Source of the DNA: Thelephora terrestris
Taxonomy: Eukaryota; Basidiomycota; Agaricomycetes; Thelephorales; Thelephoraceae
Assembly (NCBI GenBank): GCA_015956445.1
Contig: WIUZ02000002.1
Coordinates: 1,798,001-1,862,000 of the forward strand
Direction of reading: 5' to 3'
DNA length: 64,000 bases
Part shown: positions 1,683-61,821 of the stretch, piece by piece
Layout: each line of letters opens with the position of its first letter
Numbering within the stretch: position 1 is the first letter of the stretch
Made by a program: the position numbers and the translations under genes
The notes under the pieces: model-generated
The model's input: the letters and a program-made list of their open reading frames with translations, nothing else
What the model was told of the DNA's origin: nothing
Databases searched by the model: none

Positions 1683-2153
1683 TGTCAGGGCCACTCTACC
1701 CCAACAACTACCAGTGCACTGAGCCGACTCCGCAGAGTACTCACTAGTCCAACTAGCTTGTGAGAGAACGATCACGTCTCTATTCTTCCGGTAGGTTGTC
1801 CGAGGTCACTACAAGTCAGGTCGAAATCCTAAAGAGAAACCCAACCTAAACCGTACTTCGTTCGGTTTAACAGACAAGGGTTTATCCCTACAACAGGATT
1901 GATGACTCCACCAGGTGATCGACTGGACGCTCGAGGTGTTCTATAAGTTGAACGCTGAGGTTCTATAGTTACGAGGCGCAGTTGACGCGCAGAGCGGGAG
2001 GGAGAGCAGATGGGGGATGTCTTGGATCAAACAAGAAACTCTGACTTGTCCTTAACTGCAACTGGGCTGAGAAGGGCAGAGGATTTCCTGAGGTAACAAA
2101 ACTAAGGTACTACGATACAGCCACAGTTGCTACTTATACTAAAGGAGTGGCCA

Positions 2154-2161
2154 TGACGTCA
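2154..2161. promoter_or_regulatory. CRE-type palindrome in the element 5' region
   Basis: The sequence TGACGTCA is a perfect ATF/CREB bZIP site. It is kept in all three family 1 copies (near 52,135 on the minus strand of copy B and near 57,430 in copy C), about 0.9 kb upstream of the gene start in copy A. Confidence 0.5.
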
Positions 2162-2957
2162 ATACCCTAATATACCCTTATCAAGTCCGAACAAGGGAGA
2201 TAAGGAGTGTGAGAACGCTAAGTAAGGGAAGCGAACAAATATGACGCGTGGGAGAATAAAGGACAAAGGGCCTTACTAGCGTGTGAAGGATTGCATAAGA
2301 GATAAAGAATGTCTGCATGAAACATAGAGGTAAAGATAACACTAGTCCTAAAAGAAAAAGGGGCATGGGGTCATGAAAGTTCGTACCTGGGGATCACACC
2401 CAAGGGCTAGGTGAGAATCTTCTTGGATGCTTCCTTTGGAGAGGCCAAAGATAGAAACCATACAGCATCCCTTGTTGTCGGTAGGCGGTAACAGCATCAT
2501 GGACTAGTGGCAACCTTATCGTGCGTCCGAACATGAGGAGCGAGGGCCTAGACTCATGGGACATAAGGGATTACAGATTCGCCGGCGTTTCACGCTAATG
2601 GCTACTCCACATTCGCTTGGCTAACCAGAAAGAGTCTAAGGCACTCCTTCCGAATAACGGCGATTCCTTCCTCCGGTTAGGAGACTATGATGTGACTGTC
2701 CACGTGTGTGATCAGGGTCCAGGGTTGATCGTAATCGTAAAGTCATGAGGGGTCGTAAAAGGGGTTCGTGATGTCATGAAGGGGTCATCAGGGTCTTGAG
2801 ACCTATTTTTAGTGCGCGCGCGTTCTAGGCGTTCCGGAACGAAGCTCTTCCAAGGCCGTCCCGCGGGCCGAGGTGTCAGCTTGATGTAGTAAGCCAACGA
2901 TGATGGTACAGGGGCGGAAGTTGATGTGACCCGGACCAATGAGATTCGTCGAGGGAG

Positions 2958-2990
2958 GTCACGTGAAGGATCACCGATCTAGGCTATAAG
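2958..2990 (+). promoter_or_regulatory. E-box and TATA-like box of the element gene
   Basis: TCACGTGA (E-box) is followed by CTATAAG at about 2,984-2,990, roughly 65 bases before the first ATG at 3,056. The arrangement is similar in copies B and C, though the E-box core is altered in C. Confidence 0.45.
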
Positions 2991-4989
2991 AAGGACGTCT
3001 TCTTGGAGCCATCCTTGATCAGCAACACCAGCAACTTCCCCATCATCTTACCAACATGTCTTTCCCCAACAACCATACCTACAAAGTCGCCAATGGTATC
3101 TCCACCATCTCCCGTATCGACCGTCGTATCGCCGCCCACAAGACCTATGCCAACGCAGCCGGGACTCCCTATACCACGGATGATCAGGTATGGGGGAGAA
3201 CTAGGGCTTCTTGTGCTAGCACTAACGCCTTCCTCTAGGTAGAGGTTACGTTCTTTTGGGCGTTGATGTCCAGCTAACGGCTTCTAGATCTTGGAGATCG
3301 TCAAGGAGGTGGACGCCGAACGTCTCAGGGAGACAATCCCACATCTGATGGGGTTGACCTGGGACGATGAACTCTGGGTCCGGTCCATGATCGCCGAGAA
3401 GGTGATCTTCCAGATGAGGGGTAGGTTCGGGGAGTTGGAGCACCCGATCAAGAAAGAGCTCTGGTACACCCTGCAAAGAGGGATCTACGATCAGGACTTG
3501 TTGGAGCACGGGGCAACCGTTCCTCGGGCCATCCGCCATGCCACTGCCGCCACCTCGTTGTTGTGGTCGCTCGTTCGGGAGGGGGAAAGCAAAGTAGGTT
3601 CTCCGTTGGAATATTCGAGTATGACTCTCGATTAACCAAACTGCCTAGGTCGAACGTTTGGAGCGTGAGGTGAAGGAGGCGAAAGCAGACGTCCTTTGTC
3701 TGTCGGCGGAGGGTCTTCTGATGAAGGAGACTCTTGCTGCCTTCCAGCAGGGGACGAACGAGGCGTTGGAGGCGATGGTTGCCAACCATCAAGAGTTGAT
3801 CGCTGGGTTAAAGGTCCAGGACAACAACATCAAGGGGGCACTGGCCAGGAGGGATGAAAAGGTCCTTTCAGCCTTTGCAGGTTTATGCAACGACTGAGAG
3901 GTTTTTCTAGACTGAACAGCTCGAGGACGTGGTGGCGGTGTTGACGGCGCAGGTCGCGTCCTTGCAGGATAAGACCTGCAACTGCAAGGAGGGTCCGAAG
4001 TTGGTTGGTCAGGGGACTGCCGACGTTCCGTTCGAGCTGGAGTACGCCGATGAGGTGGTACTCCCGTCGCCTAACCCATCGTCCTATGCGACGCCTCCGA
4101 TCGAGAACGCGGTTCCTGTTCCGACTCCGGCTCCGGCTTCCTTGTTGGCCGAGTCCGACAAGGAGAACTGTCGACGTTGCCCGCTGCAGCCGATCAGTCA
4201 GCTGGTCAAGATCGAGGATGAGGTCATGGAGGTAGATCGGGCCGAAGATGTTCCGAGGGCCATTGAGGTACGTCCGGTGACAACAGGGCAGCGTTGTAAA
4301 CGCTCTCGACGCCGTGTTGCTCATCGCATGGCTCCATCGGCTAACCCGTACCCGCGTCCAGTTGAGTCGGATGGTGACCAGTCTGGTCGAGGTGGTGGAC
4401 GAGAGTTCCGCTATTGGGTCCACCGTGCCTACCGACAGGTCGAGTCAGAGATCCAGCTTCGCCACCAGCTTCGACTCGCAAGACAGGATCCCACCCAGGG
4501 GTCTGACGAGGGAGACGGAGGGTCTCTTGCCGACTACGTCGATAGTGCTGCCGAGCAGTCATCCGGTGATGGAAATGTGGGACCAGGTGTTCCAGAGTTC
4601 GGTGACATCTGGGAGGCTGATCGGTCCGCTCGAAGGCATCTCTTCCTATCGGCTTGAACTAGTCGTTCAGCTGAGTGCCGAAGATGGTGACGCCATGTTC
4701 GGGGAGGTCCTTGCGAGGAGAGGTCAACACTACGATCTCCGGGATGGACGCTTGATGACCATGAGGCCTGCCGTAGATAGAGTCGACTTTTGAGGACGGT
4801 GTATAAGCATTGTATAGCCAGTTATTCCGTATTGCCGTGAATGTATGCGCGTTTGTGTGTTTTTGAATGATGGGTGTGACGGATAAGGAGTGTGAAGCAT
4901 TCAAAACATAAGGAGTGGTAAGAAGAGTTCGAAGAAAGATCGTGTTATAAAAAGTTTTAAAAATACCATGTTCCTGACAGACTCTCAAA

Positions 4990-6118: not shown

Positions 6119-7600
6119 TCACGTCCATGCAGAAATCATGTCAGAGGCGGCCTCTTGAAGTAGGCCAGTGAAGGGAGCATGAGTCCTGTCAGAACGAAGC
6201 ACTGGGTCCTTTGGATGCTTGGCAGTGAAGGCCTCAACCCTGGATGGTTCTGGTTCCAGGTCTGGCAAGACATTGCTGTGCTTGATACAACAGTTTGGGG
6301 GATGAAACAAGTCGTCACCGAAACAACGGCAGAAGACGTCATGAGGACAGGAATCCTCGGGTGGGTTGAACCAGGTTCGAAGGAGTTGACACATGCTTTC
6401 CCAGCGTTTTAGATCAGCGGCTTTCTGACCCTTGAGCCCTTTCGAGTCCTCGACAATGTCTCTGACCCACCGTGAGGCATAGGTGATAGCAGTTGCTGGC
6501 TTCTTGTCCCGACCGGCTCGTCCCATCTGTTGAACAAGCTTCAAAAATGAAGAAGGCACGTCAAACACAATCACCTGCCGGATGTCGGAAACATCAACAC
6601 CCCATGTAAAACAGTCACTCGCAACAATGATTCGGGTGGTCCCAGTTCGGAATCTCTCCATCGCACGTAGACGGCCTTGATCTGAGATCAGAGAATGATA
6701 TGGGAGGATGATTTCTTTGGGTGAGAGGGACTGTGGAAGGAGACGTTTGAGGAAGCTGTATACACGGGTGCCAAGGTTTATGGTGTTGCAGAAGATGAGA
6801 GACTTTGTGATGTCAGTGGCAGATGTGGCAGCAGATGGTATGAGCCAGGAAATGTCGAGGAATGTGTTGGAAGAGATGGGGTACTGGAAGAACCGCGGGA
6901 TGTAGCAGACGTGGGGATTGTCGATGGGGAGATGAGTGTGGATGTAGCAGCCTGGGTTAAAACCAAGGGAGGCCATAACCCGGTCAAAGGTCTTGCCAAC
7001 AGGAAGTGTCGCGCTGACCGCAACCCAAGGGACAGAGGAAGGTAGACGGTGACGAAGTCGCCCGATCTCCTTGTAACACGGGCGAAAATCAGCTCCTTGT
7101 TCCTCAACCAAATAGCACTCATCGACGAATACAATGCAGAGGCGGTCGCGGAATTTCGGATCGGCAAGCAGTGGTTTCAGACGTTCACTTGTCAGCATCT
7201 CCGGCAAGACAATCACTAGACCATACTTCCCGCCCATCACTTCTTTGACCAAGTCTCGGTGTTCATTGTGCGAGGCATGGCTAGCAGTGGCTTCATCAAT
7301 GGCAATAGCCGGGATTCCTTTTGACCGCGCAGAACGTTCCTAAAATGGTCTCAGTCAATCACCAGTAAATCGAGCAGCAACATACCTGATCACGGCCCAA
7401 AGCTTTTGTTGGAGTGATGCTTAACCCAATCGCCGTTGTGTCTTGAAGGCGAAACACAAGAAGTGGCGCATATAACAGCATCGTCTTTCCACAACCAGTC
7501 CCTGCCGTGAATACGACATCCTTTCCATCAATGATTTCCTTGGTCAGGGTGACCTGCCAATCCTGGAGTTCGGGATATCCAAGGCTCAGTGATGATGGAC
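6119..7600 (-). CDS. RecQ-like superfamily 2 DNA helicase (5' end uncertain)
   Basis: This encodes an ATP-dependent 3'-5' DNA helicase of the RecQ type. Reading on the minus strand, a segment with GYPELQDWQ (a RecQ motif-0-like W-Q) leads to the Walker A sequence AGTGCGKT. A 46-base intron at 7,340-7,385 is followed by a frame open to the stop at 6,119. That frame holds motif II as DECY in place of the usual DEVH, motif III SATLP, motif V-like WGVDVSDIRQV and motif VI QQMGRAGRDKKP. A Cys-rich patch (CPHDVFCRCF, then CC) in the C-terminal part may be the RecQ zinc-binding region. No RQC winged helix or HRDC domain is recognised. I could not place the start codon, and the open frame continues upstream to about 7,640. 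The gene points toward the telomere-like repeats. A telomere-linked helicase, an ordinary dispersed RecQ paralogue or a 5'-truncated copy are all possible. Confidence 0.8.
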
Positions 7601-20562: not shown

Positions 20563-21428
20563 GGCTTGCGACTGCTTGTTCACTGTAATTTTTCTACTGA
20601 TAAGCGCTGTAATCGTGTAATATCAACTGGGGTTTACACGCGACCTTTTCTCGGAACCCTGTGCAGAGCAACCTCAGGCGAGCGGGGGTGAAACGCTGGA
20701 AACCGTGTATTGAGAGGTTGTGCGGTGGCTGCTTTGTCGTTACACGCCTTGTACGGGCGTGGCGATTTGGCGGAGAATGATGTTCACGGTCACCTAGAAG
20801 CGTTTCGCCGACCACCAACCATCATGATATGCATCTCCCCGCACTACCACCTGCCTCCTCAAGGTCAGTCAGAAGAAGTATCCTAACCGCTGACTACTGT
20901 TTTGGTTGATAGAGTCTTAAAAGGTGTCTGTTGGGCCAGGAAGGAGCAACGTTATGAAAGCCAACGTGGTGATCGACGATCTCACCGACGTGCACAGTCT
21001 AATGAATTCATCTTGTTCTTTACGTGCAAGCATCAGCCACCCTCTACAGGTCTCACGCAAAGGTGTGGACGGAACTTATCATGACGGCGTTCTCACCTTT
21101 TTTGTCGTGTATCAAGCCCAGACGCTCAATTTGTACGGATTCTCGGCACCGTCGGAAGACGCCCTTGATCTCAATTCAACACCCCAGAGGACACATATCT
21201 TCCACGCGATGGCTACCACGTCCAGAGCATGTCCTGATCCATCTTATCTGCAATTTCTTTGAGGCGCCTTTCGAGGGCACATCTGAGGCACTTCGAGACC
21301 TTATCGTGAAATCAATTGAACTGGGTTCCGCCACAACGTTGCTTGAATAAATAGGATAGGCCCCGAGCCCTCGTTGTTCCTTCACCCAGCAGAAACTCTC
21401 CCACTAGAACCAAACATAGACGGCGATA
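20563..21428. other. Intergenic region upstream of BTB gene 1
   Basis: No gene is recognised. From about 21,130 the DNA is homologous to the region upstream of the second BTB gene, and AATAAATAGGATAG near 21,345 is a TATA-like candidate shared by both. Confidence 0.5.
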
Positions 21429-22283
21429 ATGTCGGACAGCGAAAGATTTGAGGTCCCGGACCCAGATCTCATCCTACGAGCTCGAGGTCCTCCCAACCGC
21501 GACTTCCGAGTCCACAAACTCGTTCTCTCCCTCGCTTCACCCGTATTCAGGGGCATGTTCTCCCTCCCCCAACCGACCACGCCCCATCAAGGAGAGTCGG
21601 ATGCGGCGCAAATAGATGTCGTCGAAGTCACGGACGCCCCACGCGCGCTTGACACCATCCTCAGAATGATCTATCCCTTCGAACCCCCGACTTTCAACGG
21701 CAACCTCGACGGTCTCGTGGAATGTCTGGTCGTTGCGGACAAATACGAGATCAAAGGGGCGATGTCGCGACTGCGCGGGGCCCTTTCGCGGCTCACTACT
21801 TCCAAGGCCCTTCGAGTCTACGCTATCGCTTCGCGATTCGAATTCGCCGACATCGCGGAATCTGCCTCCCGCCACATTCTCACATCGGTCAATCTCACTG
21901 GGATCCCCCAACTCCCGGAAGACTTCGGAGTCGTCCCCGCCACGACTTACCACAAACTCGTCAGAGCGCAGGCGAACCGCCTGGAAACGGTGGTAGACAT
22001 AATTAACCGAACGCCGCTCCAAAGCTGTCACAATTGCCCCGGCGGAAGAAAGTTTGCGGGAGAAGTGTTCAGGGCGAGACTCACTCGTATCATCATGAGG
22101 GGCACGCCCGTGGACGCTCCAGCTTGTTTCGAGGCTTGGGGGAAGGCATACGGGCATGACGCCGAGTGCGAAACGGACTGCGTTCCTAAATTCATTTACG
22201 ATGCCATTTCCAAGGCCGAGAAGCAGTTGGCCACACCCGCGACGCCCTCGCCGAAGAGGAAATCGATTCTGAAGAACGCATGA
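21429..22283 (+). CDS. BTB/POZ domain protein 1
   Basis: An intronless 284-residue protein. The N-terminal BTB fold (residues about 10-110) has the signatures DLILRARGPPNRDFRVHKLV, LSLASPVFRGMF, LDTILRMIYPFEPP and LVVADKYEI. In fungi such proteins are usually Cullin-3 adaptors or lineage-specific members of large families; no target can be inferred. The C-terminal part contains several cysteines (CHNCPGG, CETDCVPKF) and ends with a basic SPKRKSILKNA. The start is the first ATG and follows a TATA-like box by about 75 bases. It is a tandem paralogue of the gene at 23,232. Confidence 0.85.
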   Translation: MSDSERFEVPDPDLILRARGPPNRDFRVHKLVLSLASPVFRGMFSLPQPTTPHQGESDAAQIDVVEVTDAPRALDTILRMIYPFEPPTFNGNLDGLVECLVVADKYEIKGAMSRLRGALSRLTTSKALRVYAIASRFEFADIAESASRHILTSVNLTGIPQLPEDFGVVPATTYHKLVRAQANRLETVVDIINRTPLQSCHNCPGGRKFAGEVFRARLTRIIMRGTPVDAPACFEAWGKAYGHDAECETDCVPKFIYDAISKAEKQLATPATPSPKRKSILKNA

Positions 22284-23231
22284 GATTTTTTTACTATATA
22301 AATTCGTGTACTTATGTACCATGGACTGTACCCCAATTCCTGTAATCTGTACTGGTGGTAGAAACCTGTATCGATCATCCCGTTCGATTCATGTCATGTT
22401 CACGCGAGATACCGCAACCGCGAGTACTAGCGGGTCATCGTCATCACGAAGATGGCTGACAGATCCTGGTAGGACGACAGGCCGCCTCAACCCTGGTGCA
22501 CTAGAATGTCCGAGTCTCACATAGGAACGGATCCCCGCCACAAACACTAACGACAGGGCAGCCTCAAGGACGCTCTTGATACAGGTGACTGGCGGGTATG
22601 GTCATCTGGCAGACCACTACACAGCCAAACGGATGGAATGAATGTATTCGTACGATGTCTTGTCTTTCATATTCTCGTCATTTTTTTCCGTGTCGGTGAA
22701 TCTGGCAGACCGTAAAGAACGGCTGAAGTTTGGAAAGTTGCCACACAATGGGGGTTTCGAGAGCGTCGTGAGGCCCAATGAGCCACTTATCTCCGGTGCG
22801 CTCTATGATTGACCAATCCGGTGCATGGTACGTCCGAGTGGCTATAAATTCGATGAGTCTCTCTGACCGTGTCGAAAAATCGCTTCTTTGACCGAAGTTG
22901 CGTTGCTTGCCACTCCCCCAGTACGGATGCTCGACACTGCTTGAAGACGTTTTTTGACGCAACTCGGAGCCTCAGAGAACACTGCCCCAGAGAGGATGCA
23001 TATCTTCAACGGTCACGGCTACCACTAGGAGGACACGTCTTGATCCCCCCCAACCACAGCCTTCGAGGCTCGTGTCGGGGGAACGTCCGAGGCTGTCCGG
23101 AACCTTATCGGGGAATACATCGCAGGGTCCCGCCACAATGTTACCTGGATAAATAGCGTGAGCCCTGACCCCCTCTTCATTTTTTCACCCAGCAATACCT
23201 CCCCGCCATCTCAAACTCAGAAACAACCACA
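22284..23231. other. Spacer between the two BTB genes
   Basis: The first part is the 3' flank of BTB gene 1. From about 22,920 the DNA resembles 21,130-21,428 and is the upstream part of the duplicated unit, with GGATAAATAGCG near 23,147 as TATA-like candidate. No other gene is seen. Confidence 0.5.
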
Positions 23232-24101: not shown

Positions 24102-24610
24102 TTTTTTTTCTTTCGGTGGGGCTTCAAGCTCCATGCATCATGTATCATGGGCTACGTACCAATTCCTTTGATCTGTAACGGTGGTGAGAACTTGTATCAA
24201 TAATTTCTTGGGATTTCTCTGCGTTTGCGCTCATTGCACATAATATACCACAACCACTCGTCGATATTTTGGCATGCGTCAGTGCAAAAGCTTGACGCGA
24301 ACTTGACATATGCTCCTACGTCTTCCAGGTTGGTAAAAGTGCCTAACGGGCCCCCTCACCTGCAAATTTGATGAACCGGGGCCGGGTATCCACCACCAAA
24401 GACCGAAGTTTAAAACGTTCGAATCCAGCCCGATATCCCCACTCTTCTCCCCCGACTCAATCTTGCGTTTTCATACCCCCGTGTGGCTTCGAAACGCGGT
24501 TATATACCCCATTTGTACTTCGACCCGACTATTTATTTATCATATCATTACATACATAGTTGCTCGGTCCGGCGTGCTGCAACTCCGTCGCTCGACCGTT
24601 CAGTTGGAAT
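24102..24610. other. Convergent 3' region between BTB gene 2 and ureG
   Basis: AT-rich 3' flank. A GTTCGAATCC word near 24,417 resembles a tRNA B box, but no tRNA fold surrounds it. Nothing else is seen. Confidence 0.45.
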
Positions 24611-47934: not shown

Positions 47935-48045
47935 TAGCACCTGTAGGATTTGAACCTACGCCCTCACAGGATAGAAGATTTCAAGTCTACACCCCATGAG
48001 GAGCAGATTTCAAGTCTGCCGCCTTAACCTCTCAGCCAAAGTGCC
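47935..48045 (-). tRNA. tRNA-Ser(UGA)-like gene, array copy 1
   Basis: Minus strand, 111 bases, from GGCACTTTGG to ACAGGTGCTA, followed by TTTTT (Pol III stop). The A box (TGGCTGAGAGG) is intact. The B box is GGTTCAAATCC, one base off consensus, so this copy may be weaker. Anticodon loop CTTGAAA gives UGA. A second AGACTTGAAATCT sits in the variable region. Confidence 0.6.
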
Positions 48046-48107
48046 TTGGATCCTGTGCCGAGTGCGCAGTCTACGTGCCATGGCAGAGGAGGGGAAGGTG
48101 GGAAAAA

Positions 48108-48218
48108 TAGCACCTGTAGGATTCGAACCTACGCCCCCACAGGATAGAAGATTTCAAGTCTACACCCCATGAGGAGCAGATTTCAAGTCTGCCGCCTTAA
48201 CCTCTCAGCCAAAGTGCC
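48108..48218 (-). tRNA. tRNA-Ser(UGA)-like gene, array copy 2
   Basis: 111 bases on the minus strand with consensus A box and B box (GGTTCGAATCC), acceptor strands GGCACTT and AGGTGCT pairing, and a TTTTT terminator. The extra segment of about 31 bases in the variable arm repeats the anticodon-arm sequence. Confidence 0.65.
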
Positions 48219-48290
48219 TTGTAACCTGTGCCGAGTGCACAGCCCATGTGCCATTGCAGAGTAGTTCCTGTGGTGGAAGGTGGCCAAAAA

Positions 48291-48401
48291 TAGCACCTGT
48301 AGGATTCGAACCTACGCCCTCACAGGGTAGAAGATTTCAAGTCTACACCCCATGAGGAGCAGATTTCAAGTCTGCCGCCTTAACCTCTCAGCCAAAGTGC
48401 C
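48291..48401 (-). tRNA. tRNA-Ser(UGA)-like gene, array copy 3
   Basis: Same structure as copy 2. The second variable-arm hairpin reads CCCT-GTG-AGGG, a perfect 4-bp stem. It lies 183 bases from copies 2 and 4. Confidence 0.65.
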
Positions 48402-48473
48402 TTGTAACCTGTGCCGAGTGCACAGCCCATGTGCCATTGCAGAGTAGTTCCTGTGGTGGAAGGTGGCCAAAAA

Positions 48474-48584
48474 TAGCACCTGTAGGATTCGAACCTACGC
48501 CCTCACAGGGTAGAAGATTTCAAGTCTACACCCCATGAGGAGCAGATTTCAAGTCTGCCGCCTTAACCTCTCAGCCAAAGTGCC
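48474..48584 (-). tRNA. tRNA-Ser(UGA)-like gene, array copy 4
   Basis: Essentially identical to copy 3, including the spacer, so the 183-base unit was copied recently. A and B boxes and the TTTTT stop are present. Confidence 0.65.
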
Positions 48585-48656: not shown

Positions 48657-48717
48657 TAGCACCTGTAGGATTCGAACCTACGCCCTCACAGGGTAGAAGA
48701 TTTCAAGTCTACACCCC
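48657..48717 (-). tRNA. Truncated tRNA-Ser-like copy 5
   Basis: Only the 3' part remains (second anticodon-arm copy, variable hairpin, B box, acceptor 3' strand and terminator). The 5' half with the A box is replaced at 48,718 by the AGCAT-rich inverted repeat, so it is not a functional tRNA gene. Confidence 0.65.
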
Positions 48718-48965: not shown

Positions 48966-49340
48966 ATTGAGATTCTCACCAGTCCAGTTTCCCTGCAAGG
49001 TAAAAACAACATCACTTGCTCAAAATTCAAGATGAAATAAACCATATACAAGAAAAACCAACAATCACTGGCCCTGTATTTTATGTTCTTGACCAAATCT
49101 CAACCCTTGAAACTAGGCCAGGCAGTTTCTACTCACACACCCAACAGTCCTTCCACTGACTCAGGAGCTCTTGTATGCTTGTTTTCATTTTGCCTTGACA
49201 TGGCTGTTGCTTCATGCAGCTTGCATGGAGTGAACTCTTGACTTTCTTCCAGTGTCTTTCTCCAGTGAGTTTGAGTAATTTTCATCAGGCCATGGATGTA
49301 CTTATTTGTCAAAGTACAAACATTCCCAAAGATTCATGGG

Positions 49341-52300
49341 TGTCAGGAACATGGTATTTTTAAAACTTTTATAACACGCTCTTTCTTCGAACTCTTCTTA
49401 TCACTTCTTATATTTTGAATGCTTCACACTCCCTATCCTTCACACCCATCATTCAAAACACACAAACGCGTGTACCATTCCCAGCGAATCGTAACAACAT
49501 GGCTATATACGGTGCTATCAACGTCCATCAGAAGTCAACTCTATCTACGGCAGGCCTCATGGTCATCAACTGTCCATCCCGGAGATCGTAGTGCTGGCCC
49601 CTCCTCGCTAGAACCTCCCCGAACATGGTGTCACCATCTTCGGCACTCAGCTGAACGACTAGTTCAAGCCGATAGGAAGAGATGCCTTCGAGCGGACCGA
49701 TCAGCCTCCCAGATGTCACCGAACTCTGGAACACCTGATCCCACATCTCCATCACCGGGTGACTGCTCGGCAACACTATCGACGTAGTCGACGAGCGACC
49801 CTCCGTCTCCCTCGTCGGACCCCTGGGTGGGATCCTGTCTTGTGAGTCGAAGCTGGTGGCGAAGCTGGATCTCCGACTCGACCTGTCTGTAAGGACGGTT
49901 GACCCTATATCGGTATCCCCGTCCCTCATCTCGACCAGACTGGTCACCATCCGACTCAACTGGACGCGGGTAAGGATTAGCCGATGGAGCCATGCGATGA
50001 GCAACACGGCGTCGAGAGCGTTTACAACACTGCCCTGTTGTCACCGGACGTACCTCAATGGCCCTCGGAGCATCTTCGGCCTGGTCAACCTCCATGACCT
50101 CATCCTCGATCTTGACCAGCTGACTGATCGGCTGCAGCGGGCAACGCCGACAGTTCTCCTTGTCGGACTCGGCCAACGTGGAAGCCAGAGCCGGAGTTGG
50201 AACGGGAACCGCGTTCTCGATCGGAGGTGTCGCATAGGACGACGGGTTAGGCGATGGGAGTACCACCTCGTCGGCGTACTCCAACTCGAACGGAACATCG
50301 GCTGTTCCCTGCCCAACTAAGATGGGACCCTCCTTGCAGTTGCAGGTCTTATCCTGCAAGGACGCAACCTGCGCCGTCAACACGGCCACGACGTCTTCGA
50401 GCTGTTCAGTCTAGAAGAAGTCTCTCAGTCATTGCATAAACCTGCAAAGGCTGAAAGAACCTTTTCATCCCTCCTAGCCAGCGCCCCCTTGATGTTGTTG
50501 TCCCTAACCTTCAGCCCGGCGATCAACTCTTGATGGTTAGCCACCATCGCCTCCAACGCCTTGTTTGTCCCCTGCTGGAAGGCGGCCAGAGTCTCCTTCA
50601 TCTGAAGACCCTCTGCCGACAGACAAAGGACGTCTGCCTTTGCCTCCTTCACCTCGCGCTCCAAACGTTCAACCTAGGCAGTTTGATTAGTCGAGAGTCA
50701 TACTCGAATATTCAAACGGAGAACCTACCCGGCTCTCCCCCTCCCGAACGAGCGACCACAACAGTGTGGTGGAAGCGGTGGCATGGCGGACAGCCCGAGG
50801 AACAGTCGCCCTGTGTTCCAACAGGTCCTGATCGTAGATCCCCCTCTGCAGGGTGTACCAGAGCTCCTTCTTAATCGGATGCTCCAGCTCCCCGAACCTA
50901 CCCCGCATCTGGAAGATCACCTTCTCAGCGATCATCAACCGGACCCAGAGCTCATCGTCCCAGGTCAACCCCATCAAATGTGGGATCGTCTCCCTGAGAC
51001 GTTCGGTGTCCACCTTTGTGACGACCTCCAAGATCTAGAAGCCGTTAGCTTGACATCAACGCCAAAAGAACGGAACCTCTACCTAGAGGAAGATGTTAGC
51101 GCAAGCATAAGAAGCCCTAGATCTCCCCCATACCTGATCATCAGTGGTATAGGGAGTCCCCGCCTCACTGGCATAGGACTTGCGGTTGGCGGCACGGCGG
51201 TCGATACGAGAGATGGTGGAGATACCATTGACGACTTGATAGGTATGGTTGTTGGGGAAAGACATGTTAGTAAGATGATGGGGAAGTTGCTGGTGTTGCT
51301 GATCAAGGATGGCTCCAAGAAGACGTCCTTCTTATAGCCTAGATCGGTGATCCTTCACGTGACCTACCTCGACGAACCTCATTGGTCCGGGTCACATCAA
51401 CTTCCGCCCCTGTACCATCATCGTTGGCTTACTACATCAAGCTGACACCTCGGCCCGCGGGACAGCCTTGGAAGAACTTCGTTCCGGAACGCCTATAACG
51501 CGTGCGCACTAAAAATAGGTCTCAAGACCCTGATGACCCCTTTATGACATCACGAACCCCTTTTTACGACCCCTCATGACTTTACGATTACGATCAACCC
51601 TGGACCCTGATCACACATGTGGACAGTCACATCACAGTCTCCTAACCGGAGGAAGGAATCGCCGTTATTCGGAAGGAGTGCCTTAGACTCCTTTTGTTTA
51701 GCCCAGCGAATGTGGAAGTAGCCGTTAGCGTGAAATGCCGGCGAATCTGTAATCCCTTATGTCCCATGAGTCTAGGCCCACGCTCCTCGTGTTCGGACGC
51801 ACGATAAGGTTGCCACTAGTCCGTGATGCTGTGTGGTCTCTATCTTTGGCCTCTCCAAAGGAAGCATCCAAGAAGATTCTCACCTAGCCCTTGGGTGTGA
51901 TCCCCAGGTACGAACTTTCATGACCCCATGCCCCTATTTCTTTTAGGACTAGTGTTATCTTTACCCCTATGTTTCATGCAGACATTCGTTATCTTTTATG
52001 CAATCCTTCACACGCTAGTAAGGCCCTTTGTCCTTTATTCTCCCACGCGTCATATTTGTTTGCTTCCCTTACTTAGCGTTCTCACACTCCTTATCTCCCT
52101 TTGTTCGGACTTGATAAGGGTATATTAGGGTATTGACGTCATGGCCACTCCTTTAGTATAAGTAGCAACTGTGGCTGTATCGTTGTACCTTAGTTTTGTT
52201 ACCTCAGGAAATCCTCTGCCCTTCTCAGCCCAGTTGCAGTTAAGGCCAAGTCAGAGTTTCTTGTTTGATCCAAGACATCCCCCATCTGCTCTCCCTCCCG

Positions 52301-52610
52301 CTCTGCGCGTCAACTGCGCCTCGTAACTATAGAACCCCAGCGTTCATATTAGAACACCTCGAGCGTCCAGTCGATCACCTGGTGGAGTCATCAATCCTGT
52401 TGTAGGGATAAACCCTTGTCTGTTAAACCGAATGAAGTACGGTTTAGGTTGGGTTTCTCTTTAGGATTTCGACCTGACTTGTAGTGACCTCGGACAACCT
52501 ACCGGAAGAATAGAGACGTGATCGTTCTCTCACAAGCTAGTTAGACTAGTGAGTACTCTGCGGAGTCGGCTCAGTGCACTGGTAGTTGTTTGGGTAGAGT
52601 GGCCCTGACA
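49341..52610 (-). mobile_element. Family 1 element, copy B, with 5-bp target duplication
   Basis: Minus-strand copy of the 3.3-kb element, bounded by TGTCAGGAAC at 49,341 and GGCCCTGACA ending at 52,610. ATGGG stands directly outside both ends (49,336-49,340 and 52,611-52,615), a 5-bp target-site duplication. Parts match copy A: a 5' region with CRE palindrome at the high-coordinate side, and gene blocks from about 51,320 down to 49,528. By eye the coding blocks are about 90% identical to copy A and mostly open. No polymerase or transposase is seen. TG...CA ends with a 5-bp duplication fit LTR-type integration, so a giant solo LTR or an LTR-element derivative is possible; an unclassified inverted-repeat element is the alternative. 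Confidence 0.8.
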
Positions 52611-52624
52611 ATGGGCCTGGCCAG

Positions 52625-53390
52625 GTTTCTCACATTCCTGCCAGGGCTATTCTTGCTTCAGCTACAGTTGAGCAACTCTCTACAATTCAGGTATACCCAA
52701 AAGGCTATGAGGAAGTGCTACACTATCTCTGCCCAAACAATCTACAAGGACTAATAGATTGAACTGACCAGATTGTCTCCCAATAAATATCTGGTCTAGT
52801 CTCCTTGTACAACACAGAAAAGAGAGGTTGGGCTTCTCTCTGATGTCTCACAGGATAGCCTCTTGCTTGGCCTCAAGGTCACCCGCAACACATTCAGGCA
52901 GAGAAGTTAACCTGCAATAGTAAGCCTGTTCTGTACAGAAGGAAATACAGTACTTTAGATACTGTCAAAATGGCGGCAGCTTCAGCAGCAACTAAACACT
53001 TCCACTCGTCAGGGCCACTCTTTCCCTAGCCACAGCTGAGCGACTCTATACAGTTCAGGGGTCCCACTAGGCAACCGACAAGGCTACAGGGATAGTGCTA
53101 GACTATCTCTGCCCAAACAACCCACAAGAACTAGGAAATTGAGCTTACTAGATTGTCCTCAAAGAGGTATCTGGTTTGATTCACTAGTTCAATACAGAAA
53201 AGAGATATGGGGCTTCTCTCTGACGTTTTACAGATAGCCTCTTGCTAGGCCTAGGGGTTGCTCAGGGCACACTGAGGAAGAGGAGTTAATCTGCAATAAT
53301 CAGCTTGTTCTGTACAGTAGGAAATATAGGCCTTTATATACTATAGCGACAGTTTCTGCTTTAGGAGTGACTAAGCATGTCCACTGATGT
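52625..53390 (+). repeat. Tandem pair of about 370-bp units (family 2 5' region)
   Basis: Units 52,640-53,005 and 53,006-53,390 align throughout: GAGC(A/G)ACTCT(C/A)TACA, CTATCTCTGCCCAAACAA, ACAGAAAAGAGA, GATAGCCTCTTGCT and TGTTCTGTACAG. The second begins with TCAGGGCCACTCT, the same start as family 1 elements, and ends in a TTTATATACTATAG TATA-like box. Confidence 0.65.
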
Positions 53391-55181
53391 GAAATTTGGC
53401 TGAGCGCCTGCTACGGAAATATTTCGAAAGCAGACTTAGAAAAATATGAAAGGTAATGAATGTGTGGGAGCGTGGGGCAAGAGGGAGCATGGCTAAGGGT
53501 AACTTCCATAAACGGAACAAAGGATGAGGCAAGGATGGCATAAAATAACAAATGTTGGTCGGAATAAGACACAATCATGAGGGAATGAAGTTATTACATG
53601 GGATAAAAAGGGAGTATGACAACTAAGCAGAAATGTGGTAAGCGGGCCAAAACGTAAGTACAATTGGTGTGTGGGAATGATTGAATCAGCACCAATTGAG
53701 TAGGGACTCAGCTGGTCTGTGTGCAGCCTTGTGACATGGGGACTAAGTCTGGCATGGCACCCTGGTTCCGGCCAGAGACTGATGATTGGCTGGCTGGGAT
53801 AGGATTTAAGGGTGGAGAGTGTGGGCTTGCTTCCTCAGCAACTTTTGTCGCTACCAACCTCTTCTCTCCTCTCTTGCTTAACCAGCCAATCTTCACTAAC
53901 ACTATGTCTTCTCTCACCAACTCTGCTGCCATGAAGGGAAACACTAGCTGTGCTGCGTGGGGGAATCTTTCGTTGCACAGCATACATGTAGCGTATACTG
54001 ATTGAAGTTCCCAGGTCCACTAACCTGGCTAGCACCACTATCATCAACAAGCTTCAGTCGGCATCCAGGGAGGCAAACATGTTGACTCCAGAGAGGACTC
54101 ACAAGGTGTACCCGCCGGAGTCTGGCACCTGCAACCCATGCTTGATTTGCTCTGATGTGCACAAGCTGATTGATCCGTACCCTGTTCACTAAAAGGACTT
54201 CTTCTTCCGCGCGCCATATCTTCCATTCACCAAAATCTCCCACGGTAACACCACAACCTATACTCGTCCTCGTGCTCCCCAGTACTTGGATGAGATCTAT
54301 CCTGAGGAGGAGCAGATCAGGGACCAGGCCTTGGATTGTATGGACGACCAGGCTAACTTGTGGTTGCCCGAGATGGTCTTTGTCAACAGGTGTTGGGCTT
54401 CAACAATCATCCACGCCCAGGAGGAGGGTAACGAGTTCCTGCAGCTTCATGCTCATATCGAGCGAGGCTTGACCAACATTGGGAAGGAAGAGTTGCTGAT
54501 GGTGAATCCTGATGTTCTTAGGTCCATCCAATATGCTGCTGTGATGAGAGGGATGTTGTTCGGTTACAGCAACATGTTGAATAGGGAAAACTATCAGTTG
54601 TGAGGACAGATTCAGGAGATGGAGGAATCGATGGAAACCGAGCAAGGGCGTCGTTGGGATCTGGAGAGGACCGTCAACCGTTTATTGAGTAGGGTGACCA
54701 CTATGGAGTCTACCTTGAATGCGGTAGGACCTCCAGTCCATTCTTATTTGTCTAGAACTAACTTGGGGTCTTGTAGGTGTTGGTTGCCCTTCATGGGAGT
54801 GGGTCTCCTGAGGATCTGTCAGCTTTGGCAGATGATGAGTGTCGGTTGCCAGCAGGTCCTATGTGTACAGGACAGCGTGCTTGTTGTGGTAAGGATAAGC
54901 ATGGGCCTTACAGCTGTGCGGACAGATTGGGGAAGGGGCAGCTCATGCCAATTGAGTCGGAGGTGAGTGGGTCCAGTGGGATGTCCTACCAGTCAGTCCC
55001 AAGGACTGACGGTTCCGTGCTGTTTTCTCCTTTGCATACTCCTGTACCACCTCCAGAGGAGCACCGGTCTATCTTGGACCCTTGGATGAGCAATCTCCAA
55101 GACATCCCGGTCTTGGAGTTGATAGCGGCAGCCGAAGAGGTGAAGGCGATGGACTTCCCACAGTCCAGGGCCATTCCTTAG
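53006..55181 (+). mobile_element. Family 2 element, distant relative of family 1 (3' end not found)
   Basis: Starts with GTCAGGGCCACTCT as in family 1, then differs. It has a TATA-like box near 53,335 and a multi-block gene from about 53,904 (MSSLTNSAAMKGNTS) to 55,181. One block contains QYLDEIYPEEEQIRDQALDC and ANLWLPEMVFVNRCW, comparable in position to the 114-residue block of family 1. A coiled-coil-like stretch follows. The last block has GQRACCGKDKHGPYSCADRL, a C-x4-H-x4-C core like part of a zinc knuckle. It looks older than family 1 and appears damaged, with perhaps a few breaks. Class unknown. Confidence 0.55.
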
Positions 55182-56159
55182 ATACCATAGTAGGCCATAT
55201 TATATTTGGAATATAACCAACATCATAGCTGTCGTTTGGTGTGAATAGAAGGAAAAGGGTGAATGGACTAGTTAATGTGAGAAAAGAGTGTCCATGAAGT
55301 GAAAAATGAACACGGTAAGGGCGTAGCAGTCATGACGATGATACCACCAATCATCAAAAATAGCTGTGTGTATGCACAGAAGATTTTCTAACATCTAAAC
55401 CCAGAGCACTATGAAAGGTAACAAAAACTGGGCAAGAGGGGGCATGCCAAATGTCCACAGTGACTTTCTGATTAACAGGACCACACTCAGTTGTTGGATG
55501 TGGATCTGGAGGAGGTTCAACAGGAGGGCTGGGGGATTAAGGAGCTGTGACAAGAATTGAGGAGTTGATCCAGAGCATGAACCAGGGCCTCAAATGGATG
55601 GTTCTTGTCATTAACATGTGACATGTTGAAAAAGATCACTCAAGTCATACAAGAAATTTGCTCCATTTGCAGTAATAACACAAGACAAGCACACACTTCA
55701 CATGAACAACACTGTGTCATCAGACAACAATGAGCAAAATATAAGGATCACACACACTCCGAGAACATAAACACCTCCTCAATGTTGGATTTACCCAGCA
55801 GTCCTGACATCCCAGGCCATTCTGAAACACCCCTTCATGCATCTCTGTCGCCACTTGACTTAACCCTTCACTCATCAAGTCAAACCATACTTCTCCTGGA
55901 GTCTCCCTACTCCCAGTTTCAACCTCATCCTCCCTTGACACACCTTGTTTGACAGATGACACCACTGTCAAGAAAGACTCACTGGGCTCTTGCAGCTCTT
56001 TTTCAAAGTCTTCTCCATCTGAGGAACTGGAACTGGATGACTAAATGTGCACTTACCAAGCATGTAGAGGATTGGGTATATAGGGAGGGGGGATGGATGG
56101 CTCTCTTCTTTTGACCACCACTTCCCCCTCCGGCACCTAATTTGTTTGTCCCACCAGAC
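55182..56159. other. Gap after the family 2 gene; no gene seen
   Basis: The first 200 bases resemble the region below 63,582 on the minus strand (AAAGAGTGTCCATGAAG, GCAGTC(A/G)TGA(C/T)GATGA), so they belong to the family 2 element. A CCTGACA word at 55,803-55,809 is a possible but unproven 3' end. The rest is unassigned. Confidence 0.4.
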
Positions 56160-56958
56160 ACAGACACCATCAACTATTTCGAATGAATCGTTATAAGACC
56201 TCTTCAAATAAACCTCAGTGATCTAGAGCTAGCTTTTCAACATGTAGATGAGGAAGATGACCCAATCCAAAAACAATCCAGACAAGACTACTACACCTCC
56301 CACATCCTTGAAATTTTCAATGACAACTCTTCCCAATCCACCTGGCCCATCCTTTACCCCTCCTCCAGATTTGGAGACAATCTCCTCAGACAACTCCAAT
56401 CTGTTCAAACAGGAGTAGACAACCTCAACACCAACAACAATCCTACCATACCATAACCTTCCTCCCAACCTGCCGCAGATGTCATTCTGATGTTGGTGGC
56501 AATGGAGGGAAACATTACAGATCTACAAGTGGAGACTCTAGCCTCCCTTTAAAGCTATGCTGACACTGCTGAAGTGTCTGCTCCCATAACCCCCCCTCCC
56601 CCACAGCCAAAACCTTCCCTGAAGAAGAACCTCTTTCCACAAGCAGTGATTTAAACAAAATGCAACACAGATCCCAAGAGCCTCCCCTCCTTTGTTGACC
56701 TGGTCACCACCCTTAACAAAACCCTCCACAAACATCCCAAACACTTGTATGTCCATGTGGTTGGTGTGGAGTGGACTGCAGCATTGAACCTGGTGGTCCA
56801 CACCCAGACACCCTCCCCCTCTGCCTCGTTAACGCCCTCAAGGCTGTTCAGGCATCAATTACGTCCAATCTACTGTATATCAAGAACATCATCCCCAACA
56901 CAAGATGGTCCTGTGTGACCCTGTCACACAAGTTCACCAGCAAGGAGCCCTTAACCCG
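56160..56958 (+). mobile_element. Probable LINE ORF1-like fragment, left part
   Basis: Plus-strand pieces such as SFVDLVTTLNKTLHKHPKHL followed by VGVEWTAALNLVVHTQTPSP resemble the N-terminal ORF of basidiomycete non-LTR retrotransposons, where a helical segment precedes a W-T-x-x-x-N-L-V-V strand. The frame is broken by several stops and frameshifts, so it is a fossil. It ends where family 1 copy C was inserted. The assignment rests on pattern memory only. Confidence 0.35.
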
Positions 56959-58048
56959 TGTCAGGGCCACTCTACCCCAACAACTACCAGTGCACTGAGC
57001 CGACTCCGCAGAGTACTCACTAGTCCAACTAGCTGTGAGAGAACAGTCATGTCTCTATTCTTCTGGTAGGTTGTCCAAGGTCACTGCAAGTCAGGTCGAA
57101 ATCCTAAAGGGAAACCCAACCTAAACCGTGCTTCGCTCGGTTTATCCAACAAGGGTTTATCCCTACAGCAGGATTGATGACTCCACCAGGTGATCAACTG
57201 GACGCTCAAGGTGTTCTATAAGATGAACGCTGAGGTTCTATAGTTACGAGGCGCAGTTGACGTGCAGAGCGGGAGGGAGAGCAGATGGGGGATGTCTTGG
57301 GTTCAAACAGAAAACTCTGACTTGGCCTCAACTGCAACTGGGCTGAGAAGGGCAGAGGATTTCCTGAGGTAACAAAACTAAGGTACTACGATACAGCCAC
57401 AGTTGCTACTTATACTAAAGGAGTGGCCATGACGTCAATACCCTAATATACCCTTATCAAGTCCGAACAAAGGGAGATAAGGAGTGTGAGAACGCTAAGT
57501 AAGGGAAGCAAACAAATATGACGCGTGGGAGAATAAAGGACAAAGGGCCTTACTAGCGTGTGAAGGATTGCATAAGTGATGACAATTGTCCGCATGAAAC
57601 ATAGGGGTGAAGATAACACTAGTCCTAAAAGAAATAGGGGCATGGGGTCATGAAAGTTCATACCTGGGGATCACACCCAAGGGTCAGGTGAGGATCTTCT
57701 TGAATGCTTCCTTTGGAGAGGCTAAAGATAGAGACCATTCATCATCCCCTGTTGTCTGTAGGCGGTAACAGCATCACGGACTAGTGGCAACCTCAACGTA
57801 CGTCTGAACATGAGGAGGTCGGGCCTAGACTCATGGGACATGAGGGATTACATGCTTCGCCAGTGTTTCACGCTAACGGCTACTTCCACATTCACTGAGC
57901 TAACCAGAAGGTTCCTAAGGTGATGCTTCCAAATAGCGGCGATTCCTTCCTCCGGTTAGGAGACTGTGATGTGACTGTCCACGTGTGTGATCAGGGTCCA
58001 GGGTTGGTCGTTATCGTGATGTCATAAATGAGTCATCAGGGTCGTAGA

Positions 58049-58773
58049 CACTGGGGGAAAGGGGGTACTTACCCAATGGGTACATTGTGAGTTCATTGTG
58101 AGTTTTGAAACCATTTGCCCAGTCGTTACCCACCAGGTACTTTCTGGGTACTTTTTGAAAGATACCCATCAATTCGCCCGAATTTTACCCACTGGGTACA
58201 TGGTGGGTATTTTGTAAAAGTACCCACTCCGGAACCCAGTGGGTACTTTTTGAGCAAAACCCTGGGGTTCTTTCACAATTTACTTTCCAATGTGCCTATC
58301 ACAAACTTGAGCCACTCATTGAGAGTTCTTTTATAAAGTACCCACCAATCCAATCACAATGTACTCAACCAGATACTCAATGGGTTCTTTGAGAGTTTGT
58401 GATGAAAATGAGCCACATTGTGAGTTCTTTGTGAGTTCTTTGAAAAAAACACACTGGGTACATTGTGATCAGATTGGTGGGTACTTTATGAAAGAACTCT
58501 CAATGAGTGGCTCAGGTTTGTGATGGGCACATTGGAAAGTAAATTGTGAAAGAACCCCAGGGTTTTGCTCAAAAAGTACCCACTGGGTTCCGGAGTGGGT
58601 ACTTTTACAAGATACCCACCATGTACCCAGTGGGTAAAATGTGGGCGAATTGATGGGTATCTTTCAAAAAGTACCCAGAAAGTACCTGGTGGGTAACGAC
58701 TGGGCAAATGGTTTCAAAACTCACAATGAACTCACAATGTACCCATTGGGTAAGTACCCCCTTACCCCCAGTG
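58049..58773. mobile_element. Palindromic CACTG-ended MITE 1 in copy C
   Basis: A 725-bp foldback: CACTGGGGG at the left and CCCCCAGTG at the right, with arms of about 316 bp (58,049-58,364 and 58,458-58,773) around a 93-bp centre. AGA flanks both ends (58,046-58,048 and 58,774-58,776), a 3-bp target duplication. CACTG ends plus 3-bp duplication fit a CACTA/CMC-type non-autonomous transposon. The arms are filled with GTGGGTACTTT-like words. Arm identity is very high, so it is young. The mirrored 73-codon frames in each arm are spurious. Confidence 0.85.
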
Positions 58774-59282
58774 AGAGGGGTTCGTAAAGGGGTCATCAAG
58801 GTCATGAAACCTATTTTTAGTGCGCGTGTGTTCTAGGCGTTCCAGAACAAAGTTCTTCCAAGGCCGTCCTGCGGGCCAAGGTGTCAGCTTGATATAGTAA
58901 GCCAACGATGATGGTACAGTGGCGGAAGTTGATGTGACCCAGACAAATGAGGTGCATCGAGGTAGGTCACATGAAGGATCACCAATCTAGGCTATAAGAA
59001 GGACGTCTTCTTGGAGCCATCCTTGATCAGCAACACCAGCAACTTCCCCATCATCTTACCAACATGTCTTTCCCCAACAACCATACCTACAAGGTCACCC
59101 ATGTAATCTCTACCATCTCCCGTATTGACCGCCGTGCCGCCAACCGCAAGACCTATGCCAATGAGGCGGGGGTTCCCTACACCACTGATGAGCAGGTGGG
59201 GGAGCTAGAACTTTGGTTGTATTAATTCTAACTCATCCGTAGATCTTGCAGATTGTCCAGCAGGTGGATGCCAAACGTCTCA

Positions 59283-60120
59283 CACTGGGGGCAAGGGGTC
59301 ATTTACCCAGCAGATACATTGTGACTACATTGTGATTTTTTAGACAATGTGTCCAGCCTGTGGCCAGGAGGTACATGCTGAGTTCTTTCACAAAGTACCC
59401 ATCAATGCGACCACAATGTGGCCAGTGGGTCCATCTTGATCACTTTTACAAAGTGCCCATCAATTCGATCACAATGTGCCCTGTGGGTCCATGCAGGATA
59501 CATTGTAAAAGTATCCATCAAAGTGGCCACTGAGCACTTTGTGAAAGAAACCCCTGGGTTCTTTCACAATTTTGTTCACAATGTATCCTACTGAGTGCCT
59601 GAGCCACTCATTGAGAGTTCTTTCAAAAAGTACCCAGCAATGCAACCACATTGTCCCCAGGGGGTTCTTCTTAACGTTCTCACAATGAACTCTCAATGTG
59701 GTTGGATTTCACAACAAACTCCCAAAGAAGCCATTGAGTATCTGGTTGAATAGTTTGTGGACACATTGCTGGATACTTTCTGAAAGAACTCTCAATGAGG
59801 CCCAGGTGTATGCTGGACACTTTGTAAGAAAAATTGTGAAAGAGCCCAGGGGTTTCTTTCACAAAGTGCCCAGTGGCCACTTTGATGGATACTTTTACAA
59901 TGTATCCTGCATGGACCCACAGGGCACATTGTGATCGAATTGATGGGCACTTTGTAAAAGTGATCAAGATGGACCCACTGGCCACATTGTGGTCGCATTG
60001 ATGGGTACTTTGTGAAAGAACTCAGCATGTACCTCCTGGCCACAGGCTGGACACATTGTCTAAAAAATCACAATGTAATCACAATGTATCTGCTGGGTAA
60101 ATGACCCCTTGCCCCCAGTG
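59283..60120. mobile_element. Palindromic CACTG-ended MITE 2 in copy C
   Basis: An 838-bp foldback of the same family: CACTGGGGGCAAGGGG to its complement, arms of about 360 bp, centre near 59,700. TCA flanks both sides (59,280-59,282 and 60,121-60,123). The uninterrupted site is visible in copy A (CGTCTCAGGGAGAC, one TCA), which proves the exact insertion point. It splits the 114-residue coding block of copy C. Confidence 0.9.
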
Positions 60121-61821
60121 TCAGGGAGACGATCCCACATTTGATGAGGTTGACCTGGGACGATGAGCTCTGGGTCCGGTCCATGATCGCCGAGAAGACG
60201 ATCCATCAAATGAGGGGTAGGTTCGGGGAATTGGAGCATCCCATCAAGAAGGAGCTCTGGTACACCCTCATGCGAGGGATCTATGATCAGGACCTGTTGG
60301 AGCATGGGGCGACTGTTCCTCAGGCTGTCTGCCATGCCACCACTTCCACCACACTGTTGTGGTCGCTCGTTCGAGAGGGGGAAAGCCGGGTAGGTTTTCC
60401 GTTTGGATATTCGAGTATGACTCTCGACTAACCAAACTGCCTAGGTTGAATGGTTGGAGCGTGAGGTGAAGGAGGCGAAGGCCAATGTGCTTCGTCTGTC
60501 CGCCGAGGGTCTCTCGATGAAGGAGACCATGGCCGAGTTCCAGCAGAAGACGAACGAGGCATTGGAGGCGATGGTTGCTAACCATCAAGAGCTAGTTGCT
60601 GGCCTGAAGGTTCGGGACAACAATATCAGGGGTGCCTTGGATGCGAGGGACAATCGCCTGGATAGGCACTCAAAGAAGATCGGGCAGGAAAGCGTTAAGG
60701 TCGGCTTTCAGCCTTTGCAGCTTGTGCAATAACTGAAAGCCATTCTTCTAGATCGAGGAACTCGAGGATCTGGTGTCCGTGTTGACTGCGCAGGTTGAAT
60801 CCCTTCAGGATAAGACCTGCAATTGCAAGGAAGGTCCTGTCTTGGTTGGACAGGGTACGGCCAATGTTCCGTTCAAGTTGGAGTATGCCGACGAGGTGGT
60901 ACTCCCATTGCCTAACCCGTTGTCCTACGCCACTCCCCCAGTAGAGAACGAGGCTCCCATCCCGACTCCGGCTCCAGCTCCTACTCTGGCCGAGTCCAAC
61001 AAGGAGAACTGTAGGCGCTGCCTGCTGCAGCCGATCAGCCAATTGGTGTCGATCAAGGACATGGTCTTTGACCAGGCTGAAGATGCTCCGAGGGTTGTCG
61101 AGGTACATCCGGTGATTAAAGGGCAGCGTTGTAAACGCTCTCGATGCCGCAATGATCATTGCATGGCACCCTCGGCTTACCCTCACCCGCGTCCAGCTGA
61201 GTCGGATGGTGACAAGTCTGGTCGAGGTTCGGGAAGACCGTTCTGATACCGGGTCAACCGTCCCAACCGACAGGTCGAGTCGGAGGTCCAGCGTAGGCAC
61301 CTCACTCGACTCGCAGTATAGGATCCCCCCCAGGCCTCCAATGAGGGAGACGGAGGGTCTCCCTTCGACTACGTTGACAGCGCTGCCGAGCAGTCACCCG
61401 GTGATGGAGATGTGGGACCAGGTGTTCCGAAGTTCAGTGACATCTGGGCGGCTGGTGGGACCCTACGAAGGAGTGTCTTCATATCGACTTGAACTAGATG
61501 TTCAGTTGAGCACGGAGGATGGGGATGCCATGTTTGGAGAGATCCTTGCGAGGAGGGGCCGGTTCTTCGATCTCCAGGATGGACAGCTGATGACCCAGAG
61601 GCCTGCCGTAGATAGAGTCGACTTTTGATTGGACATTGTATAAGCATTTAGTATAGCCATGTTGTTCTGTATTGCCATGAATGTATGCGCGTTTGTGTGT
61701 TTTGAATGATGGGAGTGAAGGATAAGGAGTGTGAAGCATTCAAACATAAGAAACGGTAAGAAGAGTTCGAAGAAAGAGCGTGTTATAAAAAGTTTAAAAA
61801 TACCATGTTCCTGACAACTCG

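Follow-up and report, generated by a model that had tools for sequence, protein, structure and literature searches.

What kind of mobile DNA carries a spliced protein gene between the ends TGTCAGG and CCTGACA? The question is raised by three copies (A, B, and C) of a 3.3-kb unit in a 64,000-nucleotide stretch of Thelephora terrestris DNA (assembly GCA_015956445.1, contig WIUZ02000002.1, positions 1,798,001 to 1,862,000; here called the window, with positions counted from its first base). We read A, B, and C as solo long terminal repeats (LTRs) of a Gypsy-type retrotransposon whose 3.3-kb LTRs carry a five-exon gene, and we put the probability of this reading at about 0.6. We infer the LTR identity of the unit, its missing interior, and the loss of that interior by recombination, and likewise that the gene is expressed and what its protein does. 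An earlier reading made from the letters alone (the sequence-only reading) had left three possibilities: a very long LTR that has a gene inside it, a nonautonomous LTR-type unit, or an undescribed transposon class with a cargo gene. The first of these is the best supported but is not proven.

The first 19 and the last 24 bases of the unit are identical in A, B, and C, and homology among the copies breaks off at an identical TG and an identical CA, which bears out the copies and exact shared ends proposed earlier. The 3' 19-mer had three matches in the window when up to three mismatches were allowed (shuffle mean, 0.01), and DNA comparison revealed no further copies of the unit in the window. 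Copies A and B aligned over their full length with 92.5% identity. The alignment of C with A fell into three blocks because C holds two inserted elements, which also account for its extra length. The 5' ends read TGTCA and the 3' ends TGACA in all three copies, following the TGTNR rule of Gypsy LTRs (PMC2836005), with the complementary pattern on the 3' side. The exact inverted repeat between the two ends of the unit is 7 bp long, and scanning A and B showed no opposite-end partner with at least 12 matches for either 16-base end.

We compared the 5 bp on the two sides of each copy. In element orientation, the flanks of B are CCCAT and CCCAT (a 5/5 match, ATGGG on the plus strand), and those of C are ACCCG and ACTCG (4/5), both as the sequence-only reading had stated. 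We estimated the chance of such matches from 200,000 random site pairs in the window, which gave a frequency of 0.00115 for 5/5 and of 0.0167 for at least 4/5; we put the probability that three copies would include one perfect and one 4/5 match at no more than ∼1 × 10−4. Target duplications of Gypsy-type LTR elements range from 4 to 6 bp. The TGTNR ends, the very short inverted repeats, and the 5-bp duplications together point to a retroviral-type integrase. We favor the solo-LTR reading because of such ends, because LTRs of more than 3.2 kb occur in rice Retrosat2, and because mouse mammary tumor virus (MMTV) has a gene within its LTR.

The boundaries and target sites also bear on the view that segmental duplication has spread an ordinary family of host genes whose ends are alike by chance. 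The gene does have the look of a normal fungal gene, spliced and preceded by an upstream region of its own, but the shared TG and CA at which homology ends in three of three copies, the target duplication at B, and the 4/5 match at C make this explanation highly improbable. When copy C is removed, a frame that is open and in register runs across the empty site (flanks 56717 to 56958 and 61817 to 62125). This is compatible with insertion but is weak evidence, since both flanks are open and a matching frame would be expected by chance in about 1 of 3 cases. Pfam searches of these flank frames gave nothing above the cut-off and one subthreshold match (E = 0.014) in an overlapping frame; the interrupted frame may resemble ORF1 of a long interspersed nuclear element.

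The same five-exon gene model fits A, B, and C, with introns at matching places, and all 12 introns (four in each of the three copies) have GT...AG borders and are 49 to 100 bases long, consistent with the spliced gene that had been proposed for all three copies. In A and B, the model comprises 480 codons including the stop, with no premature stop. Its weakest point is the intron 3 donor, for which A offers one GT and three GC positions that keep the frame. In C, intron 1 is shorter (56 bases), and exon 2 begins 9 bases later than in A by the acceptor used. Exon 3 of C carries one insertion and exon 4 one deletion, each of which keeps the frame (Table 1), and exons 1 and 5 are free of indels; the gene of this copy is disrupted by insert 2. 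The model changes two details of the sequence-only reading. What had been taken for a basic Cys/Arg tail is intron 4, after which the protein continues in another frame in exon 5. The proposed 114-residue domain is still unrecognized, but it corresponds mainly to exon 2, of 102 amino acids.

Throughout the divergence of the copies' lineages, the gene was maintained as a protein-coding gene. We counted differences by codon position over the whole of exons 1 and 5 (without the stop) and the gap-free aligned parts of exons 2 to 4. Third positions differed at 76/450, 136/450, and 119/450 sites for A-B, A-C, and B-C, respectively, versus 49/900, 122/900, and 114/900 for first and second positions together (Fisher P values of 5 × 10−11, 9 × 10−13, and 7 × 10−10). 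Over the whole gene, A and B showed a nonsynonymous divergence (dN) of 0.045 and a synonymous divergence (dS) of 0.304. In the exon 5 frame, dN/dS was 0.29, 0.28, and 0.25 for the same pairs; these values are the lowest among the frames and support intron 4 and the frame shift that follows it. We rejected an additional reading frame over exon 5, since the other two frames had dN/dS of 0.44 to 1.58 and were interrupted by stops, either in C or in every copy. Because purifying selection has persisted through deep divergence between the copies, the gene is unlikely to be a recent passive cargo. Most likely, since it has been kept by selection, the protein serves the element, whether in assembly, in regulation, or as protection against silencing by the host.

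The product has 479 amino acids in A and B, and the A protein is acidic (pI 4.9). The part encoded by exon 2 is 90% (B) and 88% (C) identical to that of A, and the fraction of P, S, T, and G residues is 0.25 in exon 4 and 0.34 in exon 5. Exon 3 is only weakly coiled-coil-like, with subthreshold matches to five Pfam families when the whole A protein was searched (best E = 0.079). There was no PDB match for exon 2 at E values up to 10 or for the whole protein at E values up to 1. The predicted structure of exon 2 is all helical but of low confidence (mean predicted local distance difference test [pLDDT] score, 56), and the 71 Foldseek matches to this model at E values up to 10, none of them at 0.001 or below, were not interpretable. 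Pfam searches recognized no polymerase, integrase, or transposase in the protein or its pieces. A Gag/nucleocapsid reading of the A/B/C protein was not supported, as the A protein is acidic and has no CCHC motif. Pattern searches with the exon 2 alignment gave 76 matches in the genome_contigs collection and 15 in viral_contigs, and those with the exon 5 alignment gave 54 and 14, respectively; tblastn confirmed none of them. Eight exact viral_contigs matches of the 15-base 5' end were attributed to chance, with no match to the element longer than 17 bases.

These properties have to be set against the proposal that the unit is by itself a complete, autonomous transposon belonging to an undescribed class, in which the 479-amino-acid protein, without a recognizable catalytic domain, would be needed for the unit's own movement as a recombinase or as its DNA-binding or targeting subunit. 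One strongly conserved gene is recognized per unit, the protein matches no known family, and a second repeat family in the window (D and E, described below), with the same 5' 13-mer, also carries a coiled-coil-like open reading frame (ORF). On this proposal, the old D and E family would be a sign that the class is diverse. We nonetheless judge the proposal improbable: the acidic protein with P/S/T/G-rich exons 4 and 5 is, in our judgment, atypical of a recombinase, the low-confidence helix bundle of exon 2 has no PDB match at an E value of 0.001 or below, and the A and D proteins have no convincing homology.

The noncoding leader of the unit diverged less than its gene. Leader differences, counted without the stretch around insert 1, were 32/1,248 (2.6%) for A-B, 90/1,286 (7.0%) for A-C, and 87/1,250 (7.0%) for B-C, and the third codon positions, at 16.9, 30.2, and 26.4%, are far above these values. 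Differences between A and B climb sharply near position 3080, just within exon 1. The leader would thus seem to be either constrained or often exchanged. The closest pair is A-B in the leader and in exons 3 to 5; in exons 1 and 2, B-C are as close as A-B, and in the tail A-C are closest (6.0%, versus 12.6% for A-B and 14.1% for the third pair). Because the closest pair changes along the unit, the units are mosaics, which template switching in LTR elements can produce and which gene conversion could produce as well. Differences between A and B cluster at positions 4799 to 4847 of A and in the matching tail of B, where A and C are alike, which suggests that this segment of the B tail was replaced. 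In A, a TATAAG motif at element position 1303 precedes the start codon by ∼70 bases; the motif occurs at element positions 1275 in B and 2035 in C. RNA folding of the first 478 bases of the unit gave no signal (z = −0.65), and a promoter and terminator scan of the unit used bacterial models, which are not informative for a eukaryote.

On the solo-LTR reading, a full-length element (LTR, gag-pol, LTR) would have been transcribed and then reverse transcribed, and integrase would have inserted the DNA with its TGTCAGG...CCTGACA ends at a 5-bp staggered cut. Recombination between the two long LTRs would then delete the interior and leave one LTR with leader, gene, and tail, and each solo LTR would remain a stand-alone gene unit. 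Several results weigh against this reading. Reverse transcriptase, integrase, and gag were not recognized in the unit's protein or in the 45 flanking ORFs scanned with Pfam, from among 98 of at least 50 amino acids (those in non-host-like stretches; 2 of the 45 were also scanned after trimming). None of these flanking ORFs reached a Pfam cut-off, and the earlier statement that polymerase, integrase, and transposase are missing holds for the same set. DNA comparison found no pair of units in direct orientation that encloses an interior in the window; the sole same-orientation pair, A and C, is 52 kb apart, with host-like genes included between them. Between the copies, 10 of a separate 98 selected ORFs of at least 70 amino acids were scanned with Pfam, and an element there may have been missed. 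The flanks of A match at 0/5 positions and show no target duplication (Table 1), a mismatch that recombination between two elements, or an old and mutated site, could give. No relatives were found in the viral and prokaryotic collections searched, which are little informative for a eukaryote. None of the three copies has an AATAAA 3' of the gene; the single AATAAA of each copy lies in the leader, at element position 572 to 574. Finally, the low divergence of the U3-like leader is contrary to the rule, given in PMC3601003, that U3 is less conserved in LTRs than R and U5.

The absence of a paired-LTR element from the window would also fit a nonautonomous DNA transposon that an integrase-like transposase of the Ginger, TDD, or IS3 type mobilizes in trans, in which case the unit would be complete and its protein accessory. 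According to excerpts of PMC2836005, Ginger1, Ginger2, and TDD elements resemble the unit in their TGTNR ends and 4- to 5-bp duplications (5 bp in TDD-4 and TDD-5), and IS3 and IS481 share TG/CA ends. The same excerpts give the Ginger and TDD elements long inverted repeats (∼40 to 270 bp in Ginger1 and 50 to 180 bp in Ginger2) and an integrase-like transposase, neither of which was found in the unit, where the inverted repeat is 7 bp. Pfam detected no DDE domain in the 479-amino-acid protein or the flanking ORFs tested, although a nonautonomous copy could lack one. We consider a DNA transposon of this kind unlikely, and we retain the solo-LTR reading. The coordinates of all copies, exons, and related features are collected in Table 1.

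Table 1. Positions in the window of the three copies of the unit, their exons and flanks, the inserts in copy C, and the second repeat family
Feature	Position	Strand	Remark
Copy A of unit	1683-4979	+	3297 bp; flanks CCAAT / GACTC
Copy A noncoding leader	1683-3055	+	1.37 kb, U3-like
Copy A, inverted copy of 5' terminal 16 bases	2143-2158	+	12/16 match; AGGAGTGGCCATGACG
Copy A exon 1	3056-3187	+	44 codons
Copy A exon 2	3288-3593	+	102 codons; predicted helical, low confidence
Copy A exon 3	3649-3861	+	Coiled-coil-like, subthreshold matches only
Copy A exon 4	3911-4267	+	
Copy A intron 4	4268-4361	+	GTACGT...CTAAC...CAG
Copy A exon 5 with stop	4362-4793	+	Conserved C-terminal part
Copy B target duplication, one side	49336-49340	+	ATGGG
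Copy B of unit	49341-52610	-	3270 bp
Copy B exon 5 with stop	49528-49959	-	
Copy B exon 4	50054-50410	-	
Copy B exon 3	50461-50673	-	
Copy B exon 2	50729-51034	-	
Copy B exon 1	51134-51265	-	
Copy B target duplication, other side	52611-52615	+	ATGGG
D1, extra tandem copy of D 5' unit	52639-53006	+	74.6% identical; 368-380-bp spacing
D, degenerate second family	53007-55353	+	Leader, coiled-coil-like ORF, tail; 3' boundary uncertain
Copy C 5' flank	56954-56958	+	ACCCG; 4/5 match to 3' flank
Copy C of unit	56959-61816	+	4858 bp, two inserted elements included
Insert 1 in copy C	58049-58773		Palindromic, CACTGGGGG...CCCCCAGTG; 725 bp; AGA both sides
Copy C exon 1	59064-59195	+	
Insert 2 in copy C	59283-60120		Palindromic, CACTGGGGG...CCCCCAGTG; 838 bp; TCA both sides; inside exon 2
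Copy C exon 2, later part	60126-60389	+	Exon split by insert 2
Copy C exon 3	60445-60699	+	42 bases longer, in frame
Copy C exon 4	60752-61102	+	6 bases shorter, in frame
Copy C exon 5	61197-61628	+	
Copy C 3' flank	61817-61821	+	ACTCG
E, 3' part of second D-family copy	63414-64000	-	Cut by window end

The second family, D and E, is degenerate. The 5' end of D, CGTCAGGGCCACTCT, holds an exact 13-mer, TCAGGGCCACTCT, that is common to the A/B/C unit and has four exact matches in the window and none in 100 shuffles. The first 370 to 380 bases of D are duplicated in tandem (D1 and D2; 52639 to 53385), and this tandem starts 28 bases away from copy B, on the side of its 5' end. The ORF of D is degenerate and gave a subthreshold Pfam match to the coiled-coil family betaPIX_CC (E = 0.00065; 20 bits versus a cut-off of 26.8); a structure prediction for its domain was discarded (mean pLDDT, 36.7). 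E has one CCHC motif, CACCGKDRHEPYSC, that Pfam did not recognize, and D has R in place of the first C. Differences between D and E by codon position were 35, 26, and 41, with little sign of selection.

Homology between the D and A proteins was not accepted. An hhalign comparison of exon 2 with D gave an E value of 0.48, and in shuffle tests of 25 segment pairs the lowest counts for A versus D or E were 0/500 (exon 1 with D3), 14/500 (exon 4 with E4), and 30/500 (exon 2 with D3). The first and last of these pair parts that are out of corresponding order; exon 4 with E4 is in order, yet exon 4 with D4 gave 129/500. A link between D and the A/B/C unit is suggested by the 5' 13-mer and the common layout. 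The 5' terminal bases of A (1683 to 1698) also recur in inverted form 460 bases inside the unit, as they do in B, and the unit's 5' terminal bases recur near the 3' end of D (55283 to 55297), which gives the impression of a smaller unit with its limits at these sites.

The two inserts in copy C are related to each other, and in each of them the outer 100 bases are complementary at 99 positions. Both are flanked by 3-bp duplications, and A keeps an uninterrupted TCA at the site of insert 2. In appearance they resemble CACTA-type miniature elements.

Among the 10 ORFs tested between the copies, 7 have a Pfam match, including an HD domain below its cut-off. The host-like domains there are a helicase C-terminal domain, a protein kinase, a Mad3/BUB1 region, a zinc-binding dehydrogenase, BTB, and a ZIP transporter. 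The helicase C-terminal domain ORF lies at 6122 to 7339 on the minus strand, and a tandem duplication at 21186 to 24204 (75% identical) has the BTB-domain ORF in its first copy and a similar ORF in its second. Four tandem tRNA-like genes lie at 47935 to 48584 on the minus strand (Rfam RF00005; 111 bases each, 54.5 to 54.6 bits) with a spacing of 173 to 183 bases; ARAGORN reported none. Degenerate TTAGGTT-like arrays in both orientations occupy positions 1 to 1324 and are, in our judgment, possibly subtelomeric. The short introns, the genes present, and the GC content of the window would, again in our judgment, point to a fungal and probably basidiomycete host.

The usual view of a solo LTR is that of a promoter that carries no gene. 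If the solo-LTR reading is true, each deletion of an interior would leave a potentially working element gene, and an LTR-borne gene could act in trans on relatives, as a helper or as a restraint. Some fungal families annotated as hypothetical proteins may then be retrotransposon genes. What the analysis shows is a repeated unit with defined ends, a duplication at B and a near-duplication at C, and a spliced gene model under selection.

How does the unit compare with described LTR elements? MpSaci, a Gypsy-Ty3 element of Moniliophthora perniciosa, reportedly combines large LTRs with additional genes, which would make it the closest known relative and the unit less novel. Keyword searches of titles and the beginnings of abstracts brought up no fungal LTR described as carrying a protein gene, from which we do not claim absence from print. 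In rice, Retrosat2 has LTRs of more than 3.2 kb and 429 solo LTRs versus 162 complete elements, and its LTR ends, identical in RIRE8, are 5'TGTCACACCC-GGGCGTGACA3' (excerpted text of PMC3485330). The rice elements Retrosat2, RIRE3, and RIRE8, with LTRs of ∼3 kb, are described there in terms that match the unit in LTR length, TGTCA...TGACA ends, many solo LTRs, and an extra protein of unclear function, ORF0. The likeness is one of description: ORF0 of Retrosat2 lies 5' of the gag-pol frame ORF1 in a plant host, whereas the unit's gene lies inside the unit. MMTV, likened to the unit by description as well, differs from it as an animal retrovirus whose complete provirus is known, but according to excerpts of PMC9412291 it shares the arrangement proposed here, a protein gene inside the LTR, with the ORF for Sag and Naf located in U3.

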